DNA from: Glandiceps talaboti
Lineage: Eukaryota > Hemichordata > Enteropneusta > Spengelidae
DNA: 64,000 bases
Assembly: GCF_964340395.1 (NCBI RefSeq)
Contig: NC_135562.1
Span: 10,111,634-10,175,633 of the forward strand
Reading direction: 5' to 3'
The notes under the pieces were generated by a model. The model had not been told where the DNA came from. It saw only the letters and a list, made by a program, of their open reading frames with translations, and searched no databases. Positions 41,996 to 49,350 of the stretch are shown here, in pieces (within the stretch, counting starts at the first letter, position 1; each line of letters opens with the position of its first letter). The position numbers and the translations under genes are program-made.

Positions 41996-44900
41996 TTACT
42001 TTCTGTTACTTCTGGGTTTCAGTTCTTCATTTGCATTTCCTCTTAAGAAGATGTAATTCTTCTTTTGTGGATTAAAATACTCATGTCCCTGTAAAACAGG
42101 AAAAAAGTAGTCAAACAACATCAGTATTAATACATTAATTAAATTTGTGCCATTTGTTGGAAAGGAAAAATTTAATCTTATGAATTCAGCGAGGTAAATT
42201 TTCTAAAATTTTAGTTCTAGAAATGTAACAAAATCACCGGGTACCTTACCTTGGACCAATCACAACTAGACACATAGTGGCATATGCAAATATGTTCCTT
42301 TGTATAATGAATTCACTTGGTATTTTACCTTGGACCAACCTTAACTAGAGACATATCCTATGTAACATAGTCACATGGTATCTCACCTTGGACCAATCAT
42401 AACTAGACACATATGCAAATATGTTACTTTGCATAATATAATAACCTGGTATCTCACCTTGGACCAATCATAACTTGCGGCATATGCAAATATGTTGCCC
42501 TGTGCATTGAAATTACAGCAGGTGATTGGTTGGTCTAAAGCCTCTGATGTTTTCAGTTTGGTTCTTGCATCTTTATCCCAGAAACTGAACCGTCCGTCTG
42601 ATCCACACGTTGCTAAGGTGCCGTGTTCAGGATGAAATGCAATACCATTTACCTAAATAATGGACAAGATAAATGGAATGTATACCAGAATATTTTTGTG
42701 TTGTGCAAGAAATATCACACTGATGATGGAACTAACAACGTATTTCAGTGCTTGATTCTTCACAGTTACAAGTGTTTCCTGGTTTAAAATTAGACATTCA
42801 ATTCATTTTCATAACTTTCATTTTACATCTTCAACTTCTATCACATTCTCAACATTCAATGTTTTTTGCTAAGATCTTAGAATTCTGATATCAAAAAAGG
42901 GAAACCAGAAAAACTTAACATATTTTTGAATCCATGTCTTGGAGTGAAGCCCTAATACAGTATAAATGATGTTGGCTTGGTGTTGAACTCATGGGTCATT
43001 ACAGCTAAAATGTTTTGGCTTGGTGTTTCTCTCATTGGATATTACGTTTTTGACACAAAGATAGACACATTTCAACTCTAGATTAACAATAACAGACACA
43101 ATAAACACAGCAGGATCCTTTCCCCAATTACATTGAAGTATTGTTATTCTTTCACAGTGTACTAGAAACTGGCTTCTAATGAAATCATTATGCATGGACT
43201 TGATGATTTCAATGGCTTCAACTGTTTCTTTTCTAACTTATAATCAACTTTTCAACTTGAGTACTTCTATATCCCCACTGTGCTTGGCACTTATGTATAA
43301 TTGTTTCTTTTGCATTAGAAGATGTCCGAGTGTGGGTAAAAAATATCATGTTACATGAATGAAACACCAAGGAAAAGTCATTTGTACTATAAAACGATCA
43401 AAAATCGTACTACAGTATCTGTTACCTTATACAATCCTTATAACAAAACACTGATAAGTAGCTTGATAAAACGACTTGGGAACACACATGGATTTCACAA
43501 AAACACTGACATGGGGTGAGAGAAATTGACTATTTTACAATTAGTATAAGTAGTATTTTGGATACGTATTTATGCAAGTTGTACTAATAAGTAACAAATC
43601 TGGATTTCATTAACAGGATAGAGTAAAAGTTATAACTTACAGCAAAAATATCTTGTATTGAGTTGGTACTGCCATTTGAACGATGACACTTGAATGTGAA
43701 ATTGTCTTTCCTGTTGGGTAAAAAGAGATATAAATGCTAAAAAATAGGCGACGTGTGTATCAACTCATTACACAAAGTACTAAATTTGTGTAGTATGAGA
43801 TTGAGTAGTTATTTCAGAACAAAATACAGGTCAATAAATAGTGTTTAGTAATGTTTTACAACAGACATGCAGGCCACTGAGTAAAACACTTAACCGGAGT
43901 GTTGTTCATTTGAATGTTTATAATCAAGTGTAATTAATCAGTCACTGCATATATGACCAAATAAGGCTTTGCAATGTTTGCTTTAAATTTGCTGTTATCT
44001 TCTATGCATGCTATACATGTATGTTGGTTGTTTTTAAGTTTATTACACATTTCGTTTCAGTTTTTGTTAGCATTACATAAACCGTATTTAGTTATTGTTT
44101 TCAGTAAAATGTGTGCTTTTTTTATGTAAAAATATTCCCAAGTTGAGTGACTGTAAAAGGCAATATTACATTTTGTGTATTGCACTGAATTGTATTATAT
44201 TGTCCTCTACTGTACAGCACTGTACTGTACTTGCAGTGAACTGTATTACATGTATACCGTATTGTACCATATCATGCCATACTGTACTGTACTGTACTGT
44301 ACTGTACTGTACTAGTGTACTGTACTGTGCTCTACTGTACTGTACTGTAATGTACCACAGTGCACTGTTATATTGTACTGAAAGCTTGTGTTCATAACTT
44401 ACGGATTTGATGCCTGTACAAACTGTATGGCTACACGTCCCTCTATGCTGCCCAGTGCAAAACCTGTAGGTGCTTGTTTCTTGTCTTTGAAGATAGCTAC
44501 ACAGCGGTGCTGTAAAAAATAGTCATATTACAGGTTAGTATTCTCATTAAAAACACAACTAAGTACTAAAATTGTAATAAAATCACAACATTCTCACTGT
44601 TGATATCTAATACTGCTAAAATGAGCTTTGAAAAGAAAAACTAAGTAAAATTCACTGTCTTTCATTTCGCTTCAATTTCCAGTACCAAACTGTTTTCACA
44701 GAACTGGTCATTTTAAAACTCTCATGATACATCATTTCATAATTTCAAATTCAATACAGTGTAAAATAATGCACGACCAAGTGTTCCAATGGTCAATCAA
44801 TCCATTTATACTCCAAATGGCTGATTTTCTTGCTAGTACAATGCTGCTATAACTTACTATTACTCTAATTTATACAGTAATAAATATTATTAATATCTTA

Positions 44901-47900: not shown

Positions 47901-49350
47901 TATATATATATATATATATATATATATATATATATATATATATATATATATATATATATATATATATATATATATATATATATATATATATATATATATA
48001 TATATAACTTTTGGATTGGGGATACATTGAAAAACATAATAAGTAGTGAAAGTATATTGAAATATAGACAAGTGAATTTTACACATTTGTGTAACACTTT
48101 AAAGAAAACTGTGCTATGTGCTATTTCATGTGTCATGTGATTCAGTATAGATTTTCATGACTGATGCAACTTTGGATCACATAGGAATTAATAGAGGTAA
48201 AAAAAACTTTCCCTTCTATTTATTGTAGGGTGGAGTTCTGTTACTCTTTGACAGCTTGATAAGAAACCCAACTCACTCAACATACCAAGGGAATTACAAA
48301 GCAATGCAAGCATCATAAGCAACAGATATTTATTCCATATCGTAGCAAATTATGGCAAAATACTTGTATCATGCATGCAAGCATGTATCTAGTACTGGTC
48401 CTGTGTGTGTTTGCTGTGCTTTAGGTACTTACGTCATGTCAGCATGCATCTACATGTAGTACAGGTCATGTGTGTGTTTGCTGTGCTTTTACAATGTAAG
48501 TACTTACATCATGCCAACATGCATCTAGTACTGGTCCTGTGTGTGTTTGTTGTGCTTTAGGTACTGTCTGGCCTGTACTCTGAATTTCCCAGCATCTGAC
48601 CTGGATCAAATAAATGCAAGAAACAAGATTCACATTACCATCTACTGAATAGCTTCCTAAATAAGATTGATGAAGAACTCATATTGTGAAATAAAATCTA
48701 CAACAACTTTATTATGACCATGGTTTCATATTTCCAAAGTAATGCACTGTCACGCACAAGAAAATAGCACAAACCACAGGCAGTCATTATCATCAGATAG
48801 ACAAACATTGTTTGACTGAATTTCTCTGCAGACTGGCCCACTGAACCTTACTGAAATCTTCATTTGCAGTAATTAAAGGCTCAGTTCTCACAAATTGAAA
48901 TCTTGACTTTCATTGATCAAACGTTTATGATTGCTGCAGACAAGGCAACCACCTAAAGGCTAACAATATGAAATGCTTCTGTCCGCCCCAATTTGAACTA
49001 GATTCCCCCAAAAATTTGATGGAGGAGGGGGCAGCAACCCCCAAAATTTGATGGGGGAGGGGGCAGCAATTCCCCCCCCCCCCCCTGTCCTTGAAACCTG
49101 GAGAAAACACTGTATACTACAAGTATAATTACTTTGAATAACAACAAAATTACAAACACTACCAACTTACGTCATTAGCCCATGATCCAGCAATGAGAAA
49201 TGTAGACGGTATAGTCATAGGACTGAATGCAAGACAACTAACACTGTCATCTGGTGGTGATGTCACTTCTATGTCTTTCATTGGATTATGATCAGCTGTT
49301 GTCTGGCCAAACACAGACGATGTTGTCCCAAAACCACCAGCAAAAGTCAT
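41996..49350 (-). CDS. RAE1: RAE1, mRNA export factor (WD40 propeller)
   Basis: RAE1 binds the GLEBS motif of NUP98 at nuclear pores, supports mRNA export and acts in spindle assembly. Ten coding exons with good GT-AG sites and compatible phases give 363 residues, against 368 in human: 49171-49350, 48508-48600, 47191-47277, 46630-46716, 45709-45780, 44902-45009, 44403-44509, 43641-43710, 42458-42652 and 41996-42088. Diagnostic stretches are [91 protein letters not shown] and ASYDWSKGHEYFNP. The only non-zero phase is between exons 7 and 8. Upstream, an acceptor at 49381 and a donor near 51321 suggest a non-coding first exon. The introns are unusual: six carry tandem copies of an adjacent exon edge or splice site, although the frame itself is intact. 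Confidence 0.95.
42237..42457 (-). repeat. Tandem partial copies of RAE1 exon 9 end plus donor
   Basis: Three degenerate copies of about 55-80 bases lie next to the true exon end. Each carries the equivalent of the exon text around TATGATTGGTCCAAG plus a GTGAGATACC- or GTAAAATACC-like donor. The true copy is 42448-42525. The others contain CTTGGACCAATCATAACTAG on the plus strand near 42250, 42328 and 42387. Confidence 0.85.
44281..44352. repeat. (CTGTA)n pentanucleotide repeat
   Basis: This is a pentanucleotide microsatellite in RAE1 intron 7, with imperfect copies spreading from about 44200 to 44370. Confidence 0.9.
44781..44850 (-). repeat. Decayed partial copy of RAE1 exon 6
   Basis: About 60 bases resemble 44907-44975 of the real exon (CAATGGT-AATCAAT, TTTATACTC, ATGGCTG, TTTTCT, GTACA). 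Scattered substitutions and a small indel mark it as older than the other exon-edge copies. Confidence 0.75.
45163..45236 (+). mobile_element. tRNA-derived SINE head
   Basis: An A-box-like GTGGCCAAATGGTTAAACCA is followed at the usual distance by a B-box, GGGGTTCAAACCC. The stems pair poorly, so this is not a functional tRNA. The layout matches the head of a tRNA-derived SINE inserted in RAE1 intron 5/6 DNA. The unrelated body follows to about 45290. Confidence 0.6.
45781..46010 (-). repeat. Tandem partial copies of RAE1 exon 5 start plus acceptor
   Basis: Two clear copies and a third fragment repeat the exon start (plus-strand text GGGGTTCTTGTGTCCCAAAA) together with the acceptor CTACAAACATAAGGAG and further intron. 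The copies lie upstream of the true exon in the sense of transcription, so each is a decoy acceptor with about 40 bases of exon-like sequence. Confidence 0.85.
46205..46629 (-). repeat. 138-bp tandem repeat carrying RAE1 exon 4 donor
   Basis: Two 138-base units, each ending in GATGTTCTTACCTTGAG, precede the real exon 4 end, where the same text forms the donor (CTCAAG/GTAAGAACA on the minus strand). A third, more diverged unit without the donor starts near 46205. Units also hold ACAC-rich text and CCTCCCCTTTATA. Confidence 0.85.
46780..47048. repeat. Tetranucleotide-rich tract (TCAG/TCAC/TCAA)
   Basis: This is a patchwork of four-base repeats (TCAA, TCAG, CTCA, CCAC) in the RAE1 intron between exons 3 and 4. 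It has no coding potential. Confidence 0.85.
47281..47854 (-). repeat. 82-bp tandem repeat abutting RAE1 exon 3 acceptor
   Basis: Seven copies of an 82-base unit begin directly at the exon 3 acceptor. Each unit boundary reads CTGAAATA on the plus strand, which is TATTTCAG on the transcribed strand, so every copy reproduces an acceptor-like site. Copies are 95 percent or more alike by eye, indicating recent expansion or homogenisation. Confidence 0.95.
47893..48006. repeat. (TA)n microsatellite
   Basis: This is a perfect TA dinucleotide run of about 114 bases in RAE1 intron 2. The Tyr-Ile open frames on both strands are artefacts of it. Confidence 0.97.
48375..48507 (-). repeat. Tandem partial copies of RAE1 exon 2 end plus donor
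   Basis: Two copies of about 65 bases repeat the last half of exon 2 (plus-strand text GCATCTAGTACTGGTCCTGTG) and its donor. One copy reads TACTTACGTCATG, a good donor on the minus strand, so it would splice as well as the true one. The second shows a small insertion. Confidence 0.85.

Follow-up and report, generated by a model that had tools for sequence, protein, structure and literature searches.

Minisatellite-like tandem repeats that lie over intron/exon boundaries, at the 5' or the 3' edge, and that carry the AG or GT of the splice site in many of their copies have been described in amphioxus as mirages (PMC3087553, PMC3902484). The passages of these papers that deal with mirages place them in Adh and the globin genes BflGb6 and BflGb9 (PMC3087553), with PGBD5 and TnC added by PMC3902484, and give a unit length of 10-160 bp (PMC3087553). 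In amphioxus, regular splicing is undisturbed by mirages, and their copy number varies between haplotypes and somatically; RAE1, the gene studied here, is known from one assembly. We analysed the gene RAE1 in a stretch of 64,000 nucleotides (the window, to which coordinates refer unless a chromosome is named), where the neighbouring exon edge or splice site recurs in tandem within six of the nine coding introns. A genome with a hemichordate-like Hox set thus shows a recurrent mutational habit for which amphioxus work had already supplied the name, here in an unusual cluster within one gene.

A previous reading of the letters alone (the sequence-only reading) had pointed out the arrays in these six introns, which self-comparison by blastn confirms, and had added that it knew of no described system doing this. 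The latter statement is wrong, as the arrays match the published amphioxus mirages. The repeat unit spans the exon-intron boundary at exons 2, 4, 5, and 9, both boundary types are duplicated (donors of exons 2, 4, and 9, acceptors of exons 3 and 5), and the units of 67, 82, 138, ~80, and 58-71 bp fall inside the published range. Many, although not all, copies retain the AG or GT. The RAE1 arrays differ from amphioxus mirages in that a single gene has them in six introns and the Hox set of its genome fits a hemichordate. Furthermore, the exon 3 array reaches the AG without including exon sequence, and the exon 6 copy, as far as it aligns, does not include the boundary. A limited literature search found no report of hemichordate mirages, and the passage in PMC3902484 concerns the lancelet. 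Two other systems are less similar. Intron gain by tandem duplication, as set out for potato RdRp and ATP2A1 in the relevant part of PMC4974935 and for Drosophila cases in that of PMC2891723, also involves duplicated splice sites, but the RAE1 duplicates sit inside introns and are not used by the RAE1 frame. Introners, described in the pertinent section of PMC9860276 as intron-generating transposable elements, share the tie to introns and splice sites, but they put copies into many genes, whereas the RAE1 exon 3 array matched only itself genome-wide.

Tandem copies of exon edges in RAE1

RAE1 (41996..49350, minus strand) consists of ten coding exons, intact as the sequence-only reading had stated, with an unbroken joined reading frame of 363 amino acids, and all nine coding introns are GT-AG. 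The top PDB match of the product is 'mRNA export factor' (7vpg, 3mmy; E 7.5e-206). When each exon with 30 bp on either side was compared with the whole gene (blastn, copies counted at E <= 2.2e-8), the copies found besides the real edge each lay in the adjacent intron: two of the exon 2 donor, six of the exon 3 acceptor, two of the exon 4 donor, two of the exon 5 acceptor, a single decayed copy of the exon 6 body, and three of the exon 9 donor. No copies were detected for exons 1, 7, 8, and 10 with these flanks and this cut-off; with flanks of 60 bp, exon 10 matches an array in the 3' untranslated region (3'UTR). Over the aligned parts, identity between copy and real edge is 76-100%, and the majority of copies have diverged. 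Their exonic content reaches 39-58 bp for exons 2, 5, 6, and 9, 6 bp for exon 4, and is nil for exon 3.

RAE1 exons and arrays, all on the minus strand:
49350-49171, 48600-48508, 47277-47191, 46716-46630, 45780-45709: exons 1 to 5
45009-44902, 44509-44403, 43710-43641, 42652-42458, 42088-41996: exons 6 to 10
48373..48565: exon 2 donor array, three copies with a unit of 67-69 bp, containing the donor and up to 58 bp of exon tail
48432 and 48367: exon 2 decoy donors, intact in copy 2 and lost in copy 3, respectively
47278..47854: exon 3 acceptor array, seven copies of 82 bp ending exactly at the AG, with all seven acceptors scoring well
46255..46635: exon 4 donor array, three 138-bp copies that include 6 exonic bp, the three donors equal in score
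45731..46005: exon 5 acceptor array, two clear copies and one remnant with a unit of ~80 bp, containing the acceptor and up to 58 bp of exon
45944 and 45860: exon 5 decoy acceptors, intact and lost, respectively (remnant left out of scoring)
44784..44840: one decayed copy of exon 6, derived from 44908-44963 and 81% identical to it over 57 bp, lacking a usable donor
42226..42496: exon 9 donor array, four copies spaced 58-71 bp, containing the donor and up to 39 bp of exon tail
42386, 42328, and 42249: exon 9 decoy donors, that at 42328 weakened
41802..41975: 3'UTR array, unit of 51 bp repeated 3.4 times, starting ~20 bp past the RAE1 stop codon

These rows refine what had been said of the arrays. 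Those of exons 2, 5, and 9 do copy the exon edge with its splice site, whereas the exon 3 array contains no exon bases, the exon 4 array includes only 6 exonic bp, and the exon 6 copy has no usable donor. The intact frame uses the first copy in every donor array and the last in every acceptor array, that is, the copy touching the exon body. The exon 3 array measures 577 bp (7 x 82 + 3) with CAG at each end, and its copies are 97% matches among themselves. Breakpoint microhomology, read by eye in three arrays, amounts to CAG for exon 3, CTC for exon 4, and AGTAC, which is common to exon 2 and its donor.

Chance similarity is ruled out by the blastn E-values, and when the sampled sequences were shuffled once in dinucleotide blocks, the array finder returned no arrays. 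A dispersed element is also ruled out by the search made with the exon 3 array, the one array used for this purpose: together with its exon it has a single location, itself, in the whole 590-Mb genome (simple repeats and very common words skipped). Tandem arrays are prone to misassembly, and PMC3087553 reports, in its account of mirages, one that was apparently aberrantly assembled in a draft, so that an assembly artefact deserves consideration. Most RAE1 copies, however, have diverged at scattered sites and can therefore hardly be one read assembled twice, and similar structures occur on chromosomes C13, C18, and C22 (see below). We reject this explanation as extremely improbable, although copy numbers could still be wrong.

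The arrays are probably mirages in the published sense, that is, products of ordinary tandem duplication and array turnover that are tolerated as splicing keeps to the site next to the exon body. Short duplications (~60-140 bp), possibly seeded by microhomology of a few bases, would by chance span or begin at a splice junction, and some would then expand to three, four, or seven copies and decay. Replication slippage or unequal exchange, as for other minisatellites of this genome, may be their origin. Because a duplication that reaches across from exon to intron does not break up the original exon, such arrays could persist, with the splice site that touches the exon body presumably staying in use, splicing proceeding normally, and the copies being neutral.

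Exon-edge copies in other genes and the placement of arrays

The sequence-only reading had proposed a recurrent process anchored at splice junctions. We examined both parts of this proposal in a sample not chosen for arrays, comprising exon matches of CCT and kinesin genes together with EIF2S1 (26 regions, 104 exons, 113.8 kb). For CCT, 53 of 57 PF00118 matches were tested, omitting three long single-frame matches and one outside the stretch examined. For kinesin, 44 of 142 matches were used, 34 of them in the exon test and ten more in the array test alone; these exons were chosen before sequence inspection as clustered and outside a large repeated kinesin family. Outside RAE1 and EIF2S1, exon edges are approximate, having been taken from profile matches. 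Kinesin-like motor matches (profile 245-320) stand in tandem every ~1.8-2 kb on C22 near 18.85 and 19.49 Mb and on C23 near 19.04 and 19.24 Mb, with similar matches on further chromosomes. EIF2S1 (eIF2-alpha; 52704-58453, seven exons) adjoins RAE1 in the window and has no local arrays at the array-test cut-off; its intron 5 contains an exact 16-bp copy of part of exon 6 at 57049-57064 (E 0.001).

In the exon test at E 1e-4, 5/53 CCT, 0/7 EIF2S1, and 5/34 kinesin exons were positive, compared with 7/10 in RAE1 (including the 3'UTR array). A CCT exon on C13 is followed by two copies of its tail and donor and is the sole CCT positive with copied exon sequence; the remaining CCT positives are a match on C5 with a 46-bp copy 1.2 kb distant and three matches on C26 whose intron arrays stop 2-16 bp short of the matched exon. 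Four of the kinesin positives are clear exon-edge copies (three on C18, one on C22), and the fifth, on C9 (E 2e-5), failed the stricter cut-off of the array test. That the process is recurrent is therefore borne out by one CCT and four clear kinesin cases elsewhere in the genome.

Whether arrays prefer exon edges was judged from an array-level test, in which arrays found by self-comparison at E <= 1e-6 were counted as crossing an edge if they included at least 10 exonic bp, and the null expectation was obtained by placing a segment as long as the unit at random. This is the count over exon ends that the sequence-only reading had called for, run here on the 26 regions. Several of its results weigh against purely random duplication. 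In the other genes, 5/29 arrays cross an exon edge versus 2.1 expected (P=0.045), the figures being 5 versus 2.3 (P=0.069) if at least 1 exonic bp is counted and 5/12 versus 1.7 (P=0.014) without the array-rich C26 gene. In RAE1, whose seven arrays include that of the 3'UTR and whose exon 3 array was counted as non-crossing, 4/7 arrays cross versus 1.3 expected (P=0.023), and with at least 1 exonic bp the count is 5/7 versus 1.4 (P=0.005), which remains at 0.047 under the twofold weight introduced next. This weight corrects for detection: as an exon copy is under selection while an intron copy drifts, an exon-intron pair would diverge at about half the rate of an intron-intron pair and stay detectable for longer. 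Under this weight the expectation rises to 3.6 (P=0.29) in all other regions and to 2.8 (P=0.12) without C26, and the P value for RAE1 becomes 0.13; that the weight is itself an assumption also counts on the side of a preference. The crossings in the other genes lie within about twofold of random expectation, which speaks for chance placement, and as RAE1 was selected for standing out, the P values obtained for it do not amount to a fair test. Its array density, seven in 7.4 kb, exceeds that of the other regions (29 in 113.8 kb, P=0.003), and this would account for several events in one gene.

A second, window-level comparison found local copies at 5/135 edges and in 67/637 intron-interior windows of the other genes, which is fewer at edges (Fisher P=0.013), but this edge rate is too low because 39 of 174 edges with a splice score below 5 were dropped, including those of the four positive kinesin copies. 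Inside RAE1 the counts were 8/18 edges and 20/58 interior windows (Fisher P=0.58), where the test is poor because interior windows may fall in the same arrays. Our conclusions on anchoring thus rest on the array-level test.

Duplication anchored at splice junctions, either because consensus motifs such as CAG and GTAAGT provide microhomology or because breaks gather at junctions, would favour exon edges. The crossings exceed the uncorrected null, and two of the three RAE1 breakpoints fall within splice consensus (CAG at exon 3 and, by eye, AGTAC at the donor-exon join of exon 2). The excess is only about twofold, however, and is lost in the other genes under the twofold weight; the CTC of exon 4 is not a splice motif, the breakpoints were read in three arrays without a chance expectation, and none of the 17 local arrays of the CCT/TCP-1 gene at C26:15142500-15172470 copies at least 10 bp of a matched exon. 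One array of that gene consists of ~30 copies of a 31-bp unit. The anchoring part of the earlier proposal has weak support, a nominal excess that in the other genes does not hold under the assumed weight. We regard anchoring as unlikely to be the explanation; it is possible, as is a modest real preference for exon edges, but not required by the data. Random tandem duplication combined with tolerance explains most of the pattern.

Decoy splice sites and divergence of the copies

The 15 introns of RAE1 and EIF2S1 supplied the matrix used to score splice sites, real and decoy alike, so that it also scores the real sites from which it was built. Twelve of 16 decoys reach at least the score of the weakest real site (donor 8.2, acceptor 5.7), one is weakened, and three are lost; the twelve comprise 5/8 donors and 7/8 acceptors, six of the latter in the exon 3 array. 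If reading continues beyond the real donor, a stop follows after 13 codons at exon 2, 8 at exon 4, and 24 at exon 9, and an in-frame stop lies ahead of the decoy for six of the seven decoy donors of these exons. Use of the nearest exon 9 decoy donor, 71 nt further on, would shift the frame.

The retained sites and the stops preceding the decoy donors could be taken to favour the suggestion that decoys are maintained by selection, for instance for the tuning of splicing or for nonsense-mediated decay. However, half of the twelve retained sites sit in the single exon 3 array, and because this array is recent, their retention says little; elsewhere, sites have been lost or weakened. The copies have also drifted evenly. 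In eight alignments (exons 2, 5, 6, and 9), exon and copy differ at 14/126, 13/125, and 18/125 of codon positions 1, 2, and 3 (chi-square P=0.58), as would be expected of non-coding copies. The earlier suggestion of selection for decoys is thus unsupported, and we consider it highly improbable.

The host genome and the meaning of the RAE1 arrays

Outside RAE1, the window contains three tandem copies of a ~10.5-kb unit (8613-36622). They are 97.5-99% identical, and every one contains a long open frame of the RING/B-box/filamin/NHL (TRIM-NHL) type (Pfam run on one of the three). Two of these frames give identical proteins of 769 amino acids, and the third has diverged and gives 745 amino acids. 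At 60440-61075, an open frame of 211 amino acids contains a nearly whole phytochelatin synthase-like Pfam domain in a single frame. A Pfam search with 220 of the 318 listed open frames, covering parts of the window, gave one weak match besides those to eIF2-alpha, S1, and phytochelatin synthase, and Rfam and tRNA scans of the window gave none. Elsewhere in the assembly, C46:1-3000 (on a 17-kb contig) appears to be a short satellite-like repeat in which both strands contain long open frames. No mitochondrial genome came to light in the parts of the small contigs C45-C47 inspected for one.

The RAE1 window lies on C15. A homeobox search in which 150 of 217 candidates were scored found a series of homeodomains on C20 (18.20-18.74 Mb), with 11 Hox homeodomains, not 12, in order and ending in an Evx-like one. 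We take these to be Hox1 to Hox8, Hox9/10, and one 11/13 type on one strand, followed by another, inverted 11/13-like homeodomain and then the Evx-like one. Amphioxus has 15 Hox genes. According to the corresponding passage of PMC4066700, hemichordates have Hox1-8, 9/10, and 11/13a-c in standard order, whereas in echinoderms the anterior class is translocated and inverted. Judged by Hox content, the host is likely a hemichordate, which this set suits better than it does amphioxus.

With a hemichordate as host, mirages would extend beyond cephalochordates. A bolder reading, to which we give little credence, is that a deuterostome-wide duplication process truly favours splice junctions via splice-consensus microhomology and yields decoy junctions and candidate new introns, with RAE1 as a dense example. 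Automated gene models in such genomes may call decoy sites or exon copies as exons, and caution is thus advisable. Differing in age, the six mirages of RAE1 form a natural series in which one could study how strong decoys are passed over by the splicing machinery, as well as the possible contribution of tandem duplication to intron gain or intron sliding.

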